From Bacteroidia bacterium (lineage in GTDB: Bacteria > Bacteroidota > Bacteroidia > DATLTG01), in contig JBDTAC010000054.1 in NCBI GenBank assembly GCA_039924845.1, forward strand, positions 1 through 41,307: DNA of 41,307 nucleotides, read 5' to 3'. Below the pieces are notes generated by a model that worked only from the letters and a program-made list of their open reading frames with translations, did not search any database and was not told the DNA's origin. Made by a program: the position numbers and the translations under genes. Of the stretch, positions 3,152 through 10,022 are shown piece after piece (within the stretch, counting starts at the first letter, position 1; every line of letters begins with the position of its first letter).

Positions 3152-5167
3152 TTACACTCTCACGCCCATTACCAAAATATCGTCGGTCTGTTCAATCTCT
3201 TTGCGGTAATTGGAAATGAATTTATTTAATTCATTTCCTTTGTCTTCCAAATTTTTATTTTGAATGGAAAGTATTAATTCTTTGAAGCGTTTTCTGGTTA
3301 ATTTTTTTTCGCCTTGTCCACCGAATTGATCCGCAAATCCATCACTGAAAACATAAATGGTATCGCCTTTCTCTAAATTAAATTCGTGATTGGTAAACGG
3401 CTTGTGTGTTTCACTATTTCCCACCGATTGTTTATCTGCTTTTGTTTCTTGCAATTCTCCGTTTTTCAAAATCCACAGCGGACTATTAGCTCCCGACCAT
3501 TGCAATTTTGCACCATTTTCTGTTTGTTCCAAAACACAAAGTGAAATATCCATTCCGTCTTTTATTTCATCTTCACTTTTCGAAAAATTTTCGATAATAA
3601 GCTGTGCCGTTTTATCTAAAATAGCAGCGGGTTTTGTCAAACCAAATTCGCGCACTGCTCTGTTTAAAGCATTGTGACAAACTACACTTACCATCGCTCC
3701 AGGAACTCCGTGTCCGGTGCAATCGCAGGCTGCGAAAAGAATTTTTTTGTCCACATTTTCCATCCAATAAAAATCGCCTGCAACAATATCTTTTGGTTTG
3801 TAAACAATAAAAGAATCGCGCAAATAATTTTTCACAATTCGCTGTGGCGGAAGAATGGCAGTTTGTATTCGCAAAGCATAATTAATGCTACTCGTTATTT
3901 CTTTGTTTTTTTCTTCTACAACTATTTTTTGTTTTTCGATTACACTGTTTTTTTCTTCGAGTAAGGTATTTGCTTTTCGTTTGTTCGTATAGGCTCGCAG
4001 CGAAATCCCAGCTACAATTAACATCAATACAAAACCAATAATACCGCCATACGTATATGTTTTTTGTTGTTTAATTTGTTGCGTGTGTTTTAATTCTTGC
4101 TGCATAATTTGTGCTGTATTTTTGATACTATCAGCTGTTGTTTTAATGTCGAAATCAAATTGCATTTGTGATTGAATTATTTTTTTTGTGTTGGCTTCGT
4201 TTATTAAACTATCGCGATAAGCAATAAATAATTTATGATTTTTATATGCCTCTTTCCAATTGGCTGTTGCACTGTCTAAAATAGTTAAACTATTGTAACT
4301 GTTCTTAATAAACTCATTGTTCCGTATTTCTGTTGAGATTAAAAATGCTTTCTCTATATATTTTTTTGCTTCGGTGTATTTTTTTGATTGAGTATTCAAA
4401 TCGCCAATACAAACACAGCAATTTGTCATCCCGAATTTATCTCCAATAGTTGTGGATATTTCCAGTGCCGTTAAGTAATTCTTCAATGCTTCGGGAAAAT
4501 TATGTTGGAAGAAATAACTATTTCCGATATTCAAATGGCAAGTTGCAACTCCTCTTTTATATCCGATTACTTCGTCTATTTTGAGAGCAGCAAAATAATT
4601 TTTTAATGCGTTAGAAATATTTCCTTCGTAATAATAAATAGATCCAATGCTACTATAGCAAGACCCGATTCCATGTTTATCTTGGATGGTTTTTGATATT
4701 TCCAAGGCATTAAAATAATTTTCTAATGCTTTCGAATAGTTATTTTGAAGAGAATAAATATTTCCGATGCCGATATAACAATTTTCGATTCTATTTTTAT
4801 TCCCGATGGTTTTAGCCCTTCCCAGCGCAGCAAAGTAATTTTTTAATGCTTCTGGATAATTGCCTTCTAACCAATAAATATTCCCTATGTTTTCGTAACT
4901 CTCTGCAAGTCCCCTTTGATAGTTAATTTTTTCAGCAAGAATCTTTTCCTCGTGAACATAATCCAGCGCAGTATCATATTCCGCCGCTAAATAGAATCGT
5001 CTAGCGAGAAGATTTAAAGTATTTACTTTATTCGTATCTGCATTTTCCTTTTTTAAAACTGCTTGAAGTGAATCAACAATTTTATTTTGTGTGAATGTTT
5101 GTTGAGTAAGGAATATAAAAAATAGGAAAACGAAAAAATATTTTTTCAGGATTAAATTTTTGTTCAA
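3152..5167 (-). CDS. TPR-SpoIIE (PP2C) family protein phosphatase
   Basis: A 671-residue Ser/Thr phosphatase of the RsbU/SpoIIE type with an N-terminal sensor half. Residues 1-27 look like a signal peptide or anchor. About 50-330 hold TPR units with a strict 40-residue period (IGNIYxxxxNYxxALxNYFxAL). A membrane span lies at about 372-393 and a short coiled coil at 395-425. The catalytic domain (about 430-671) shows GDFYW, CDCTGHGVPGA, SDGFADQFGG and a final DDI, the metal-binding aspartates of PP2C enzymes. The TPR half should face the periplasm and the phosphatase the cytoplasm. It is the last gene of a four-gene operon and lies 59 bases after a second SpoIIE gene. The family usually dephosphorylates anti-anti-sigma (STAS) proteins. 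No STAS or anti-sigma gene is in this window, so the target is unknown. Confidence 0.9.
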   Translation of the reverse strand: MNKNLILKKYFFVFLFFIFLTQQTFTQNKIVDSLQAVLKKENADTNKVNTLNLLARRFYLAAEYDTALDYVHEEKILAEKINYQRGLAESYENIGNIYWLEGNYPEALKNYFAALGRAKTIGNKNRIENCYIGIGNIYSLQNNYSKALENYFNALEISKTIQDKHGIGSCYSSIGSIYYYEGNISNALKNYFAALKIDEVIGYKRGVATCHLNIGNSYFFQHNFPEALKNYLTALEISTTIGDKFGMTNCCVCIGDLNTQSKKYTEAKKYIEKAFLISTEIRNNEFIKNSYNSLTILDSATANWKEAYKNHKLFIAYRDSLINEANTKKIIQSQMQFDFDIKTTADSIKNTAQIMQQELKHTQQIKQQKTYTYGGIIGFVLMLIVAGISLRAYTNKRKANTLLEEKNSVIEKQKIVVEEKNKEITSSINYALRIQTAILPPQRIVKNYLRDSFIVYKPKDIVAGDFYWMENVDKKILFAACDCTGHGVPGAMVSVVCHNALNRAVREFGLTKPAAILDKTAQLIIENFSKSEDEIKDGMDISLCVLEQTENGAKLQWSGANSPLWILKNGELQETKADKQSVGNSETHKPFTNHEFNLEKGDTIYVFSDGFADQFGGQGEKKLTRKRFKELILSIQNKNLEDKGNELNKFISNYRKEIEQTDDILVMGVRV

Positions 5168-5180
5168 TGTATTTTTCGGT

Positions 5181-5202
5181 TTGAAAAATTATTTTTTTGA
5201 AG
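5181..5202. repeat. Dispersed AT palindrome copy
   Basis: A full copy (TTGAAAAATTATTTTTTTGA plus AG) followed by TGC and a T-run, in the 59-base gap between the two SpoIIE genes. The AAGTGCTTTT flank recurs as AAGCACTT beside other copies. Confidence 0.75.
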
Positions 5203-5226
5203 TGCTTTTTTTTCTTGAAATAAAAT

Positions 5227-7017
5227 TTACACTTTTATGCCAATCACCATGATATCATCCACTTGTTCATGATTTCCGCGCCACTCTTCAATGGTTTTAT
5301 TGAGCAAATGTTTTTGTTCTTGAATGGGATGCTGATGAATATTAAAAATCAATTGTCGGAAATTATTCACCATAAATTTTTTTCCGTTTACGCCACCAAA
5401 TTGATCGGCATAACCGTCTGAAAAAATATAAATACAATCTCCTTTTTCTAATTTTATCGTGTGGTTGGTATAATGTTTTTCCACATCGCTTGCATAATAA
5501 CCAATCGGAAATTTATCGGCTTTTGTTTGTATCAATTCATTGTTTCGAATAATATACAAGGGATTGTAAGCTCCGGCATATTGCAATTCCATTTTTTTAT
5601 AATTGATGGCGCACAAAGCCAAGTCCATTCCGTCTTTTGCGCTATCACCTTCTATACCTTGATGCAAAGTTTCACGAACACCTTCGCTTAACTTATCTAA
5701 GATTTTTCCAGGCTCAACTTCATCCGTACTATTTACTGCGTGTTTTAAAATATTGTACGCTACAATCGACATAAATGCTCCGGGAACTCCGTGTCCAGTG
5801 CAATCTACCGCAGAAAATAAAACCCAATCTCCTTTTTGTTGCATCCAATAAAAATCACCGCTTACAATGTCTTTTGGTTTATAAAGCACAAACGAATTCG
5901 GCAACATTTCAGCCATTATTTTATCTGGAGGCAAAATAGATTCTTGTATGCGTTTTGCATAGCGAATACTGTCCGTTACATGTTTGTAAAGGATTTCTAA
6001 TTTTTGACTTTGTAGTTCAATTTCTTCTTTTTGACGTACTACTTCTTCTGTACGCTCTACTACTTTTGCTTCCAAAACACGTTCGTTTTCTCTCAATTCA
6101 ACACGCATTTTTAAAAGTGCTTGTCCGAGTGTATCTTCTTCGCTCAAAGGTTTGTAATACGATTCGAAATTTCCCGTTCCTACTTCATTCGCAAATTCCG
6201 TCGTGCTTTTTAAACCTTCAATCAACCCATTTAAAGCGGTAGACATTTCTCCGATTTCGTCGTTTCTATCTTTGATACGCTCCTTCGGTAAAACACCAAT
6301 TCCCATGGAAAGCAACATTTTTTTCAGCTGGGTAACTGGGCGAACAATGGTTCGAATGGTAAAAAATGCAATTAAAATTCCGCCCAATAAAAGTGCTATT
6401 CCGAGTCCGCGTACTACAAATTGTAAGAAACTAAATGAATCCAGCATTTGATTGGTAACCATCGTGGCGTTGCTGCGTTGTTCTGTAATTAATTTGGAGA
6501 GATTATCTAAAATTAATTTTGTTTGCTGATCCACTTCTCCATTTTCTACTTGCGGACGAATCAAAAATAAAATAGAAGGATCTTCGTAACTCGAAAAAGA
6601 ATTAAGTTGCTTCATAATATCTTTATCGGTAGAAAACAACTTATCTATCAAACTGAAAATAGATTCAATGTCATTTTTTTCCTCTACATTATTCCATTTT
6701 GCTTCGTATTGTTGAATCTGCATTTTCAAATCGGGATACTCTTCATTGACAAGTGTTCGGAGTCTCTTTTTATCTGGCGTATCGTCAGTACTTTGGATAA
6801 AAACCCAATTTGTAATCAGCATTTTCGAGCGTACTATCAGTAAATTCAATTCTTCTAATTTACTTACCGATGGCGTATAAATATCTGTTACTTCATCTGT
6901 TTTCCTACGACTATCATTGAGTGTAAATTGCGTAAGAATAAAAGCTAAAAGGGTTAAGAAAATAAGCACGCCGAAGCCAGTTCCTATTTTTTTTCCTATC
7001 GAAAATTTTATTTTCAT
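5227..7017 (-). CDS. HAMP-SpoIIE (PP2C) family protein phosphatase
   Basis: A 596-residue membrane phosphatase. A first span (about 12-31) and a second (about 199-222) bracket a periplasmic helical bundle like the four-helix sensors of chemoreceptors. A HAMP-like linker follows (RPVTQLKKML, then NDEIGEMSTALNGL), then a long coiled coil (about 305-345) and the SpoIIE catalytic domain. That domain shows GDFYW, VDCTGHGVPGAF, SDGYADQFGG and a terminal DDI, so the metal ligands are intact. It closely resembles the phosphatase domain of the downstream gene, including the YAxRIQxxILPP lead-in, so the two domains are probably paralogous. It starts 13 bases after the stop of the TPR gene upstream in the operon. 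The likely role is to turn a periplasmic signal into dephosphorylation of a cytoplasmic regulator; neither signal nor target is visible. Confidence 0.9.
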   Translation of the reverse strand: MKIKFSIGKKIGTGFGVLIFLTLLAFILTQFTLNDSRRKTDEVTDIYTPSVSKLEELNLLIVRSKMLITNWVFIQSTDDTPDKKRLRTLVNEEYPDLKMQIQQYEAKWNNVEEKNDIESIFSLIDKLFSTDKDIMKQLNSFSSYEDPSILFLIRPQVENGEVDQQTKLILDNLSKLITEQRSNATMVTNQMLDSFSFLQFVVRGLGIALLLGGILIAFFTIRTIVRPVTQLKKMLLSMGIGVLPKERIKDRNDEIGEMSTALNGLIEGLKSTTEFANEVGTGNFESYYKPLSEEDTLGQALLKMRVELRENERVLEAKVVERTEEVVRQKEEIELQSQKLEILYKHVTDSIRYAKRIQESILPPDKIMAEMLPNSFVLYKPKDIVSGDFYWMQQKGDWVLFSAVDCTGHGVPGAFMSIVAYNILKHAVNSTDEVEPGKILDKLSEGVRETLHQGIEGDSAKDGMDLALCAINYKKMELQYAGAYNPLYIIRNNELIQTKADKFPIGYYASDVEKHYTNHTIKLEKGDCIYIFSDGYADQFGGVNGKKFMVNNFRQLIFNIHQHPIQEQKHLLNKTIEEWRGNHEQVDDIMVIGIKV

Positions 7018-7030
7018 CGCGTCAAAAAAA

Positions 7031-7945
7031 TTAATTTGTTTTGTTTAATTTTTCGAGCTTTTCTTTGAATTCATTGGATTTCCTCACATCGTGCAAACTA
7101 AAATAAATTCCAGAAAGTCCTTCAATGGTTTCTTTTCTGTCAGGTTTTAACTGATAGGCTTTTTCCATAAACGGCAAAGATTGTTTGAAAAGCGCGACCG
7201 ATTTATCTTGCATTTGATCCATCGCTACCATGTCCACATTAAAATCCATACTCGACATCATATCTACTGCTTCGTTGAAATATGAAATTCCCATGTTATA
7301 ATTGGCGCTGTAGTTATTGGAATCAATTGCCAACACCGAAAAATAATTTTTTCGAACGAGATCCAAATAGGAAGTATTTCCTTTTTTATTCGACACATAT
7401 TTTTGCGAATAAACAGATGCCAAAGCCAAATCAAAATTCACATCTTCTTTGCTCGAATTAAAATTAGGATCAATAAAACGACTCGCTGTTTTATATTGGA
7501 GGTAATCCGCTATCGCCGTTTGATAATGAATTGTATCTAAGGAAGTAGCGGCATCGTTAAAAAATTTAGATGCTAAAAAATGAATGTTCGATGAATTATT
7601 ATCTCTGTTTTCTTTGCTCGTGTCTATGCGTAACGATGTTTCAAACGATTGCAGTGCTATCACGCGCGCAGGCGACTGTTTATTTCCAATTTCTTTTTCT
7701 TTATAAATTTCCTTGTATACGAAACCATTTACGTAATTGGCTTGCGCATCTTTCCGATTTGCGGAATCTTTCATGAGTCCGTCAATCACGATTTTTGCGC
7801 TGTCTATTTTTCCGGTTTGTAAATAATTCACTACATCCGAAAGCGTTTTTCCTGCTTGCGCAGAAACGCTCATCGCCAAAGCAACAAACAGAAATACCGC
7901 GAGTGTATTCTTTCTGTTAAAAGGATATGTGAACATTTTTCTCAT
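7031..7945 (-). CDS. Periplasmic TPR-containing protein
   Basis: A 304-residue protein with a signal peptide (residues about 1-30, ending VSAQA). The rest is helical, with TPR-like stretches, for example LAIDSNNYSANYNMGISYFNEAV and a C-terminal unit ending LEKLNKTN. No catalytic motif is visible. Its start overlaps the stop of the YfiR-like gene by four bases (ATGA), so the two are translationally coupled. Gene order suggests that it and the YfiR-like protein are the periplasmic input of the two SpoIIE phosphatases downstream. That link is inferred from context only. Confidence 0.8.
   Translation of the reverse strand: MRKMFTYPFNRKNTLAVFLFVALAMSVSAQAGKTLSDVVNYLQTGKIDSAKIVIDGLMKDSANRKDAQANYVNGFVYKEIYKEKEIGNKQSPARVIALQSFETSLRIDTSKENRDNNSSNIHFLASKFFNDAATSLDTIHYQTAIADYLQYKTASRFIDPNFNSSKEDVNFDLALASVYSQKYVSNKKGNTSYLDLVRKNYFSVLAIDSNNYSANYNMGISYFNEAVDMMSSMDFNVDMVAMDQMQDKSVALFKQSLPFMEKAYQLKPDRKETIEGLSGIYFSLHDVRKSNEFKEKLEKLNKTN
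7337..7358. repeat. Dispersed AT palindrome copy inside the TPR gene
   Basis: CGAAAAATAATTTTTTCGAA plus CG, a TAA-centred copy with CGAA flanks. On the coding strand it reads R-K-N-Y-F-S. Confidence 0.6.
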
Positions 7946-8460
7946 TCTACTAATATGGCTAAAGTGGCTAAATTAGAGCTAACCACCAATTTGCTTTTTT
8001 GTGCGTTATTTCTATTTAGTTCAAATTTTTGTCGATTGTCTTTTACTACGAAATTAATTGCAGCACCCAATTTTGTAGAACCAGGATCATCTGTAATAAT
8101 GAGTGTACTCGAAACTTTCAACTTCAATACTGCTTTTTTTATTTCCACGCTTTTATTGGATGGAATGTATAATATATTGCATTTCCCAATTTTATCTACC
8201 GATATAATATTGTTGATTTGAAATTTCTGACTTCCGGCAGTTTGACTGGCAGCCATTTTTGCCAATTCACTCAAAATGGTTGGAGAGCCACCTAACACAT
8301 CGATGACAAAATCACCTTGTCGGTAATTTTCGGGCCATTCGATGTAGCGACTAAAATTATAAATATAGCAAGCTTTAACATGCGCCACAGCCATTTCTGG
8401 CTGCACACCTTGAGCGGCAGTAAGTGCAATGAAAAAAAGAAATGCGATTAGTTTTTTCAT
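7942..8460 (-). CDS. YfiR-like (DUF4154) periplasmic protein
   Basis: A 172-residue exported protein; the signal peptide covers about residues 1-20. The mature part matches the YfiR/DUF4154 pattern: KACYIYNFSRYIEWP near the start, then F-V-I-D-V-L-G, K-C-N-I-L-Y-I in the middle, S-T-L-I-I-T-D-D-P-G, a GAAINFV stretch, and S-S-N-L-A-T-L-A near the end. In Pseudomonas, YfiR is a periplasmic repressor of the diguanylate cyclase YfiN. Here the partners are two SpoIIE phosphatases instead. It is the first gene of the operon, with a -7 box 46 bases upstream. The family call is by pattern recognition. Confidence 0.8.
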   Translation of the reverse strand: MKKLIAFLFFIALTAAQGVQPEMAVAHVKACYIYNFSRYIEWPENYRQGDFVIDVLGGSPTILSELAKMAASQTAGSQKFQINNIISVDKIGKCNILYIPSNKSVEIKKAVLKLKVSSTLIITDDPGSTKLGAAINFVVKDNRQKFELNRNNAQKSKLVVSSNLATLAILVE

Positions 8461-8702: not shown

Positions 8703-10022
8703 TTGAAACTGTATTCAAAATTCGCCTTATTCAATGCTGCTTCCAAAGTATTAATTATTGCCGCCTTTATTTTATTTGTACCCACACTTATCCACGAGGC
8801 AACATTAATTCATACTGATTATAGACTGAAAAACATGAAGGATCAGGTGTTGAAAATTATTCACAAAGTTGGCTTGAAACATTTTATTGAGGAAGAACCT
8901 GACAGTAGTTTTGCCAGTTATAATATTTTGAAAGAAGAATACATTTCCATTGTTCCGACCACTAAATTTTTACCGAATATTAAAATTGAAAATTCGCTGC
9001 GAAGCATTGACAATGAAGTAGTGGATTACCGCGTGCTGGATTATACGTTTGCAGATAATAATCAAGTCTTTTTGTTAGAAATTGGTCGTAGTTTATCTAC
9101 CGTGGAAGATTTTGAATCGACCTTGAAAAAAATTGCATTTTATGTTCTTATTTTGGTATTGTCCGTTACCATTGTTGTGGACATCGGATTTAGTAAATAT
9201 TTACTTCGTCCTTTTAATCGAATTATTCAAGATAAATTAATTACAGCCAAACATCCGGATACATTCAATTATGCATCTATTCCTACAAGTACAACTGATT
9301 TCAGGTATTTGGATGATACCATTACGAATATGATGAAAAAAATAAACGATGCCTTTTTAATTGAAAAAGAATTTATCGCGAATGTTTCTCATGAATTATT
9401 AACGCCTATTTCCATTTTGCAAAGTCGGCTCGAAAATATGTTGGCAGATCATGAATTATCTGAAGAAAGTGCTTTGAAGATTATTGAATCGCAAAAAACA
9501 TTGAATCGTTTAAATAAAATAATAAAAACACTTTTATTGATTTCAAAAATTGAAAATGATCAATATTTAAAAAATCATACTGTAACTGTAAAATCATTGG
9601 TGGCAGATGTTATAATGGAAATTGAAGAACGTCTTACTGAAAAAAAGATTGAGCTAAGCGTTGCCATCGAAAATGACTTTACAATTGAGAATTGCAATAA
9701 GCCCTTACTTTTTATTTTATTGTTTAATATTATCAACAATGCGATCAAATACAATAAAAAGAGGGGATGGATAAAAATTTCGGAAAAAGAAAACAATGAA
9801 TTTTACACGATTGAAGTGCAAGACAATGGCGTTGGAATAGAACCTGAAAATATTCCATTTATTTTCGATCGGTTTAAAAAATTCAATAAAACAGAAACCG
9901 AAAGTTATGGATTAGGACTTCCGATTGTAAAAACGATTGCAAATTTTCATACTATTGCAGTGGAAGTTTCATCTAAAATAGGCGAAGGAAGTATTTTTAA
10001 GATTGTTTTCAAGAAAAAATAA
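8703..10022 (+). CDS. Membrane sensor histidine kinase (HisKA/HATPase_c)
   Basis: A 439-residue two-span sensor kinase. Spans lie at about 13-33 and 144-163 around a sensor region of about 110 residues. The H-box is FIANVSHELLTPISIL with the phosphoacceptor His at 230. The N-box is NIINNAIKYNKK, followed by DNGVGIEPENIPFIFDRF and YGLGLPIVK (G-boxes), so the ATP-binding fold looks complete. The chosen start is TTG at 8703, because it gives an N-terminus directly before the first span; the first ATG is about 45 codons later and would remove that span. No response regulator gene is adjacent, so this is an orphan kinase here. It diverges from the YfiR-SpoIIE operon. Confidence 0.87.
   Translation: MKLYSKFALFNAASKVLIIAAFILFVPTLIHEATLIHTDYRLKNMKDQVLKIIHKVGLKHFIEEEPDSSFASYNILKEEYISIVPTTKFLPNIKIENSLRSIDNEVVDYRVLDYTFADNNQVFLLEIGRSLSTVEDFESTLKKIAFYVLILVLSVTIVVDIGFSKYLLRPFNRIIQDKLITAKHPDTFNYASIPTSTTDFRYLDDTITNMMKKINDAFLIEKEFIANVSHELLTPISILQSRLENMLADHELSEESALKIIESQKTLNRLNKIIKTLLLISKIENDQYLKNHTVTVKSLVADVIMEIEERLTEKKIELSVAIENDFTIENCNKPLLFILLFNIINNAIKYNKKRGWIKISEKENNEFYTIEVQDNGVGIEPENIPFIFDRFKKFNKTETESYGLGLPIVKTIANFHTIAVEVSSKIGEGSIFKIVFKKK

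Follow-up and report, generated by a model that had tools for sequence, protein, structure and literature searches.

A YfiR-TPR-phosphatase gene unit of Bacteroidia with SiaC as the probable target and no detected diguanylate cyclase

The window, the whole stretch of 41,307 nucleotides analysed here (contig JBDTAC010000054.1, or C54, of the Bacteroidia bacterium assembly GCA_039924845.1), carries a minus-strand run of four open reading frames (ORFs), from 8460 down to 3152, headed by a gene for a YfiR-like (DUF4154) protein. The original prediction had described this run as an operon of a YfiR-like gene, a tetratricopeptide repeat (TPR) gene and two SpoIIE phosphatase genes without a visible target. 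The four ORFs are present where reported, and their coordinates, with the Pfam matches of three of them and the fold of the fourth, agree with that gene content. The two phosphatases are not a conserved pair. The conserved unit consists of the first three genes (YfiR-like, TPR and HAMP-SpoIIE), and the second phosphatase, of 671 amino acids (aa), is a neighbour outside it. By sequence and structural model, the catalytic domain of the phosphatase within the unit is of the SiaA type, and SiaC, judged by the sequences of this genome and its relatives, is most likely the missing target. The reading favoured here, to which we assign a probability of roughly 0.7, is that of a YfiR/TPR-governed SiaA-type phosphatase unit acting on SiaC, with an output other than a diguanylate cyclase. 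Because the phosphatase is of the SiaA type and siaB and siaC are encoded on other contigs of the genome, its likely target lies outside the window, and the description as a system without visible target does not hold for the genome as a whole. The features of the run are the following.

7942..8460, minus strand: YfiR-like (DUF4154) gene, 172 aa; PF13689, E 2.8e-31
7942..7945, minus strand: overlap of 4 bp between the YfiR stop and the start of the TPR protein
7031..7945, minus strand: gene of the TPR-fold protein, 304 aa; no Pfam family above the cut-off; predicted periplasmic; marker of the unit
5227..7017, minus strand: SiaA-type membrane phosphatase, 596 aa; transmembrane segment, helical sensor, transmembrane segment, HAMP, coiled coil, SpoIIE/PP2C
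6439..6912, minus strand: predicted periplasmic helical sensor, approximately residues 36-193 of the phosphatase, from hydropathy and model
6208..6363, minus strand: HAMP domain, residues 219-270; Pfam E 1.1e-5
5230..5823, minus strand: SpoIIE/PP2C catalytic domain of the SiaA type; Pfam SpoIIE E 7.6e-21
3152..5167, minus strand: TPR-transmembrane-SpoIIE phosphatase gene, 671 aa, TTG start; Pfam TPR and SpoIIE (3.7e-18)

At the level of the enzyme, the 596-aa protein shows two hydrophobic segments in hydropathy analysis (9-35 and 194-228), and its structural model places long helices between them (mean predicted local distance difference test score, pLDDT, 85.2; predicted template modelling score 0.45). 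The equivalent sensor region of a relative (locus L233) matches 4HB_MCP_1 just under the cut-off. The acidic motifs of the SpoIIE domain are invariant across 46 aligned orthologues. The best NCBIfam family of both SpoIIE proteins of the run is the biofilm phosphatase SiaA (235.2 bits for the 596-aa protein and 183 bits for the 671-aa protein, both under the cut-off of 700), and among solved structures the 596-aa sequence matches just one at E 0.01 or better, the PP2C domain of Pseudomonas aeruginosa SiaA (6k4e, E 1.5e-41). The same structure takes the top rank in the fold search, with a template modelling score (TM-score) of 0.91 on the target and a root-mean-square deviation of 2.1-2.2, ahead of RssB, RsbU and SpoIIE. 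With the SiaA domain as query, scores are 90-154 bits for 14 of the 15 SpoIIE domains of the genome and 46-162 bits for the 32 SpoIIE ORFs fetched with YfiR regions of relatives. Of the 20 domains fetched for the other type, for which the label "classical" was coined here, 19 score 0-41 bits, the remaining one (L248) being untypable. The fifteenth SpoIIE of the genome, on C24, runs into the contig end; over 154 residues it shares 77% identity with a classical domain and is itself assigned to that type.

The conservation of the unit was followed in two ways. A first census covered 60 genomes (the own genome and 59 of the same class), 30 of which hold DUF4154, with 47 matches in total whose surroundings were all typed with profiles built here. 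The genes for YfiR, TPR and HAMP-SpoIIE are consecutive on one strand at 15 of these 47 loci, the window counted, and a sixteenth (L157) has the full unit, its TPR gene having been located between yfiR and the phosphatase gene. Two loci, one of them at a contig end, have YfiR and TPR with no adjoining SpoIIE; at two others YfiR adjoins SpoIIE with no TPR match; and at six loci DUF4154 and SpoIIE lie in a single ORF, in one case with a frame break. Ten DUF4154 loci have a histidine kinase nearby or fused, and the other 11 have none of these alongside, although two of them have a SpoIIE gene nearby on the opposite strand.

The second approach used as bait the sensor and HAMP region (residues 1-345) of eight phosphatases, without SpoIIE, searched in GTDB species genomes. 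These sequences came from YfiR-bearing loci, which biases the search towards orthologues of this phosphatase, although neither YfiR nor SpoIIE is required. At least 592 stretches were matched; 117 of those listed encode a relative, and the best 80 of these were analysed, corresponding to 61 groups at 80% identity, with 8 of the 80 on contigs already in the first census and nearly all from Bacteroidetes/Bacteroidia/Flavobacteriales metagenome genomes. The sensor ORF also contains SpoIIE at 64 of the 80 loci, and at 56 of these 64 it is directly preceded on the same strand by the TPR gene, itself preceded by the YfiR gene, with tight spacing (-26 to 28 bp between yfiR and TPR, -59 to 191 bp between TPR and phosphatase). 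The other eight show TPR and then the contig edge (three), only the edge (one), two TPR genes (two), TPR followed by an opposite-strand gene (one) or YfiR without a called TPR gene (one, on the contig of L157). In two further loci with frame breaks and two at contig ends, TPR and YfiR are upstream in all four. The original prediction had made itself dependent on DUF4154 and SpoIIE genes being neighbours in related genomes, and these data, together with the single ORFs at six loci, bear out that neighbourhood; the order YfiR-TPR-HAMP-SpoIIE is found in many families of the class.

SpoIIE is not matched at the last 12 of the 80 bait loci, whose identity is 30-46%. Domain scans of ten of these found GAF in each, together with PAS in six, and one is a hybrid histidine kinase; a GAF version is present in Marivirga sericea DSM 4125 (L233). 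DUF4154 adjoins the sensor gene or lies one gene off in 5 of the 12. The presence of DUF4154 near the same sensor with GAF/PAS or hybrid-kinase outputs suggests that YfiR tends to go with the sensor and that the output is exchangeable.

In P. aeruginosa, Thr68 of SiaC is phosphorylated by SiaB and dephosphorylated by SiaA, and SiaC in its phosphorylated form no longer activates the diguanylate cyclase SiaD (PMC7647112, PMC8457831). The genome under study holds two siaC genes (C83:30912-31262 and C55:2014-2361), each beside a siaB. Structures of SiaC are matched by the C83 protein at E 1.1e-19, and the threonine motif is preserved in it (YFNTSSSK, where P. aeruginosa has YLNTSSIK); the adjoining SiaB matches the SiaB structure (E 2.4e-14). 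In a few relatives, partner genes are found next to the unit, in several arrangements. These include SpoIIE-siaB-siaC-yfiR-tpr-phosphatase (L135, on the same contig as L183), siaB-siaC-yfiR-tpr-phosphatase (L172, and also L175, where the siaC ORF is short), a siaB gene immediately following the unit (L204), yfiR-SpoIIE-siaB-siaB-siaC (L154) and a fused YfiR-SpoIIE ORF with siaC 10 bp downstream (L166); in L126/L176, L206 and L234, siaB-siaC lies several genes off the unit. The 40 of the 60 genomes that hold SiaC are also those that hold SiaB. SpoIIE matches number 1-47 per genome there (median 16.5), against 0-3 (median 1) in the other 20, which lack SiaC. Those 20 hold 14 SpoIIE matches, of which 13 were fetched (a weak match in one genome, G033, being left out) and 12 typed, all 12 classical. 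Over 198 genomes of the class, SiaC is present in 63 of the 63 with the full-length TPR protein against 59 of the 135 others (Fisher 1e-17, uncorrected for descent; cut-off for the full-length protein E 1.5e-48, chosen after a gap was seen in the list, the next best being 5e-31).

The surroundings of canonical siaB-siaC loci in relatives include a same-strand SpoIIE gene within two genes in 9 of 20. The recurrent neighbours there are a large SpoIIE protein and a lipoprotein-like protein, and no evident effector is among them. The latter, cluster c3 (L108:9967-10809 and its relatives), is some 272 aa long and resembles a lipoprotein on visual inspection. In 9 of 23 siaBC loci its gene immediately precedes siaB, in many cases with the gene of a SpoIIE protein of some 1100 aa ahead of it, and Pfam assigned the protein no family up to E 0.001. 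Other sensor architectures are also joined to SpoIIE. The proteins at L269:2000-5248 and, in the own genome, L113:9076-12339 combine a Reg_prop beta-propeller and Y_Y_Y sensor with a terminal SpoIIE, the L269 gene lying two genes before siaB; Reg_prop and Y_Y_Y sensors occur in hybrid two-component sensors. On C60 of the own genome (L112:41-8611), four tandem SpoIIE phosphatase genes are found on one strand (607, 745, 739 and 747 aa). Two SiaB (DUF6272) domains lie inside one 1559-residue open frame in one relative (G035:C55:5352-6311), and other relatives have tandem-SiaB open frames of about 350-450 residues.

With regard to mechanism, the YfiR-like and TPR proteins would act in the periplasm on the helical sensor of the phosphatase, and the signal would be relayed through HAMP and the coiled coil to the SiaA-type PP2C domain. 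This domain would remove the phosphate from the threonine of SiaC (the product of C83:30912-31262), which the SiaB kinase encoded beside siaC would phosphorylate, and unphosphorylated SiaC would bind and switch an effector other than a diguanylate cyclase. Contact of the two predicted periplasmic proteins with the sensor and the role of SiaC as substrate are proposed steps. By analogy with YfiBNR, YfiR may inhibit the phosphatase, with the TPR protein as its partner relieving that inhibition in a YfiB-like role. The network of phosphatases and SiaC proteins in this genome would be many-to-few. A wider proposal, which we regard as an even bet, is that Bacteroidia possess an envelope network free of cyclic di-GMP (c-di-GMP) where numerous sensor phosphatases, including a class under the YfiR/TPR pair, converge on few SiaC proteins by threonine dephosphorylation, SiaC then switching an effector class new to SiaC systems.

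It is important to consider the observations that weigh against SiaC as the target. In the own genome both siaB-siaC pairs are on contigs other than that of the phosphatase, 14 SiaA-type phosphatases face only 2 SiaC proteins, and the C55 SiaC carries YISSSS instead of YFNTSS, with serines at the Thr68 motif. Across the 80 bait loci, siaB or siaC lies within six genes of the unit in just 6, as a raw count. The co-occurrence of TPR protein and SiaC may partly reflect shared descent, its cut-off was set after the list had been seen, and at the search threshold of 1e-15, where weak TPR matches, most of them partial, are counted as well, the figures become 98 of 133 against 24 of 65. The 596-aa protein falls under the NCBIfam equivalog cut-off for SiaA, with 235.2 of 700 bits. 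Also encoded in the genome are a classical SpoIIE, truncated at a contig end, a stand-alone RsbW-like protein (HATPase_c_2) and two STAS proteins that likewise stand alone. Finally, the hydropathy scan flagged no segment in the YfiR-like protein, whose signal-like N-terminus was judged by eye only.

These STAS and HATPase_c_2 proteins could belong to a classical partner switch with transcription as its output, where an RsbW-like kinase would hold an anti-anti-sigma-like STAS protein and the phosphatase would dephosphorylate the latter. The original prediction had noted that the window contains no STAS, anti-sigma or GGDEF gene, which agrees with genome-wide searches: C54 has no match to STAS, GGDEF, SiaB, SiaC or HATPase_c_2 (anti-sigma factors of zinc-finger or FecR type were not searched). 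Elsewhere in the genome, the search for STAS partners returned the two proteins on C82 and C4, and HATPase_c_2 matches lie on nine other contigs. That SiaC itself is STAS-like in structure (PMC7647112, PMC8457831) also brings this alternative closer. We nevertheless consider it unlikely. The PP2C domain of the window is SiaA-type, and the separate classical SpoIIE (L004) could fill the classical role; the SiaC-less relatives, with their 0-3 SpoIIE each, yielded only classical domains among the 12 typed of 14; and the partner genes linked to the unit in relatives are siaB or siaC, in a linkage analysis that did not search for STAS. Phosphatase type, genomic distribution and linkage thus point to SiaC, and STAS/RsbW was rejected as the main target.

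A true phosphatase copy of YfiBNR, in which YfiR would repress the membrane phosphatase by direct binding, the TPR protein would stand for YfiB and the substrate would not be SiaC, agrees with gene order and topology and with the reuse of the same sensor and HAMP with GAF/PAS or hybrid-kinase outputs, DUF4154 being near in 5 of 12 such loci. The presence of SiaC in every genome with the full-length TPR protein (63/63) argues against it, as do the helical sensor, which is not the PAS of YfiN, and the absence of an OmpA-like YfiB from the operon, and we hold it to be quite improbable. A phosphatase version of the YfiBNR circuit was nonetheless the central proposal of the original prediction, and part of it stands: the layout of periplasmic regulator, membrane enzyme and cytoplasmic output fits. 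The equivalence ends where GGDEF, a YfiB-like gene in the operon and the cysteine pairs are concerned, none of which was found, and the system is not a YfiBNR one. Still another possibility is that the neighbourhood is vertically inherited gene order without functional coupling. The loci do come from related bacteria and share common descent, and the fourth gene of the window shows that other phosphatase genes can settle beside the unit. Against this, the order is kept at 39-64% phosphatase identity (46 aligned sequences) and over the 61 groups into which the 80 loci fall at 80% identity, the spacing is tight while outer neighbours vary in size and strand, and fused ORFs exist in six genomes, whatever the number of separate fusion events. 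Little credence is therefore given to this explanation. The unit dephosphorylating SiaC remains the preferred reading over all three.

The absence of a diguanylate cyclase deserves separate mention. Searches for GGDEF found none in the own genome and none in the 60 genomes (own and 59 relatives), the same searches being positive in 8 of 14 control genomes. Provided that their sensitivity suffices for these genomes, the classical output of YfiR and that of SiaC are both apparently missing. A GGDEF target elsewhere in the genome was accordingly rejected.

As for the two upstream proteins, the 172-aa protein is the sole DUF4154 match of its genome. It reaches 100.5 bits with the TOL_0243-type YfiR-like family of NCBIfam (cut-off 125) and 24.2 bits with YfiR proper (cut-off 85), and since it is below the YfiR cut-off it is a member of the YfiR-like family rather than YfiR itself. 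A phmmer search of solved structures with this protein gave no match up to E 1. In an alignment of 17 YfiR-like proteins only one column contains at least four cysteines (13 of 17), and the two conserved cysteine pairs of YfiR have no equivalent. The start of the TPR gene overlaps the YfiR-like stop, as originally predicted, and 13 bp separate the TPR gene from the HAMP-SpoIIE gene. The 304-aa protein is predicted to be all-helical (pLDDT 94.5), and the best fold matches of its model are mostly TPR proteins (consensus TPR superhelices and TPR domains), with E down to 1.2e-6; because the TM-scores on the query are only 0.20-0.36, it is TPR-like rather than a close TPR match. Its alignment comprises 53 sequences. 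The hydropathy scan flagged its N-terminus (13-33), and a periplasmic location of both proteins is probable from their sequences.

The fourth gene follows the unit in this window only, among the loci examined, and the idea of the four genes as one conserved operon was rejected on that ground. Its 671-aa product has a single flagged internal hydrophobic segment (370-394) between the TPR and SpoIIE parts, and its closest paralogue elsewhere in the genome is 54% identical. Scans for sigma-70 promoters and terminators gave no excess (19 against 22.2 expected and 4 against 4.2 expected, respectively). Next to the operon lies a repeat-rich minus-strand ORF (1-2990; 996 aa, open at the window start), surface-protein-like by eye. 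On the other side, a divergent plus-strand histidine kinase gene (8703-10022) has the PorY family as nearest match (227.7 bits, cut-off 350). A kinase match is found 6-7 called genes upstream of the phosphatase in 8 of the 80 bait loci and never adjoins the unit, except for the hybrid kinase of L243 itself.

The open-access literature, which was searched with subscription papers and preprints outside the scope, contains no paper joining YfiR with SpoIIE or YfiR with Bacteroidetes and phosphatase, and none on SpoIIE with Bacteroidetes, phosphatase and partner switching. Within it, DUF4154 leads only to the YfiB-YfiR structure; no title on Bacteroidota is among the SiaABCD/SiaABC matches listed, and SpoIIE is in none of the matches listed for SpoIIE/TPR/Flavobacterium/gliding. 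In the accessible part of PMC9239204, SiaABCD is named once, as an example from P. aeruginosa. DUF1987 is called widespread in an open paper, in the main text of which, as available, "Bacteroid-" is absent, and the available part of PMC12834913 makes no mention of homologues or Bacteroidetes. As no GGDEF was found in the 60 genomes, SiaABC-type partner switching with a YfiR/TPR sensor, apparently without SiaD or c-di-GMP, would be a new form of such switching. YfiR and SiaABC, each known to control diguanylate cyclases, are joined in bacteria without detected GGDEF, suggesting that neither the YfiR sensor nor the SiaABC switch is confined to the control of c-di-GMP. The role of DUF1987/SiaC proteins outside Pseudomonas hence becomes a concrete question, namely which partner SiaC binds in a GGDEF-free cell, and SiaC becomes a candidate partner for the many SpoIIE proteins that these genomes encode, with as many as 47 matches in a single genome.

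The system can be set beside three known ones. RsbU/SpoIIE-STAS-RsbW switches employ the PP2C phosphatase family and follow the same general logic. The resemblance lies in the PP2C phosphatase and in the STAS-like fold of SiaC (PMC7647112, PMC8457831); unlike in those switches, the linked genes in relatives are siaB and siaC, the STAS and RsbW-like genes are on contigs other than that of the phosphatase, and the SiaA-type and classical phosphatase domains are little alike. With YfiBNR of P. aeruginosa and Escherichia coli, the unit shares a DUF4154 protein encoded beside a HAMP enzyme with two transmembrane segments (PMC4655355). It differs in that the enzyme is a phosphatase and not a diguanylate cyclase, a helical sensor replaces PAS, a TPR protein takes the place of the OmpA-like YfiB (Pfam found no such domain in the four operon proteins, the rest of the genome not having been searched for YfiB), and the two cysteine pairs of YfiR lack an equivalent. 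In SiaABCD of P. aeruginosa, the phosphatase combines HAMP and PP2C with two membrane segments (PMC7647112, PMC8457831). This layout recurs here, with a PP2C fold at TM-score 0.91 to that of SiaA, and the C83 pair supplies a SiaB kinase and a SiaC with the Thr68 motif. Unlike SiaABCD, the present system has no SiaD (no GGDEF found, 0/60 genomes), its phosphatase gene and siaBC are unlinked in the own genome with many SiaA-type phosphatases per SiaC, and genes for YfiR and the TPR protein have been added upstream of the phosphatase.

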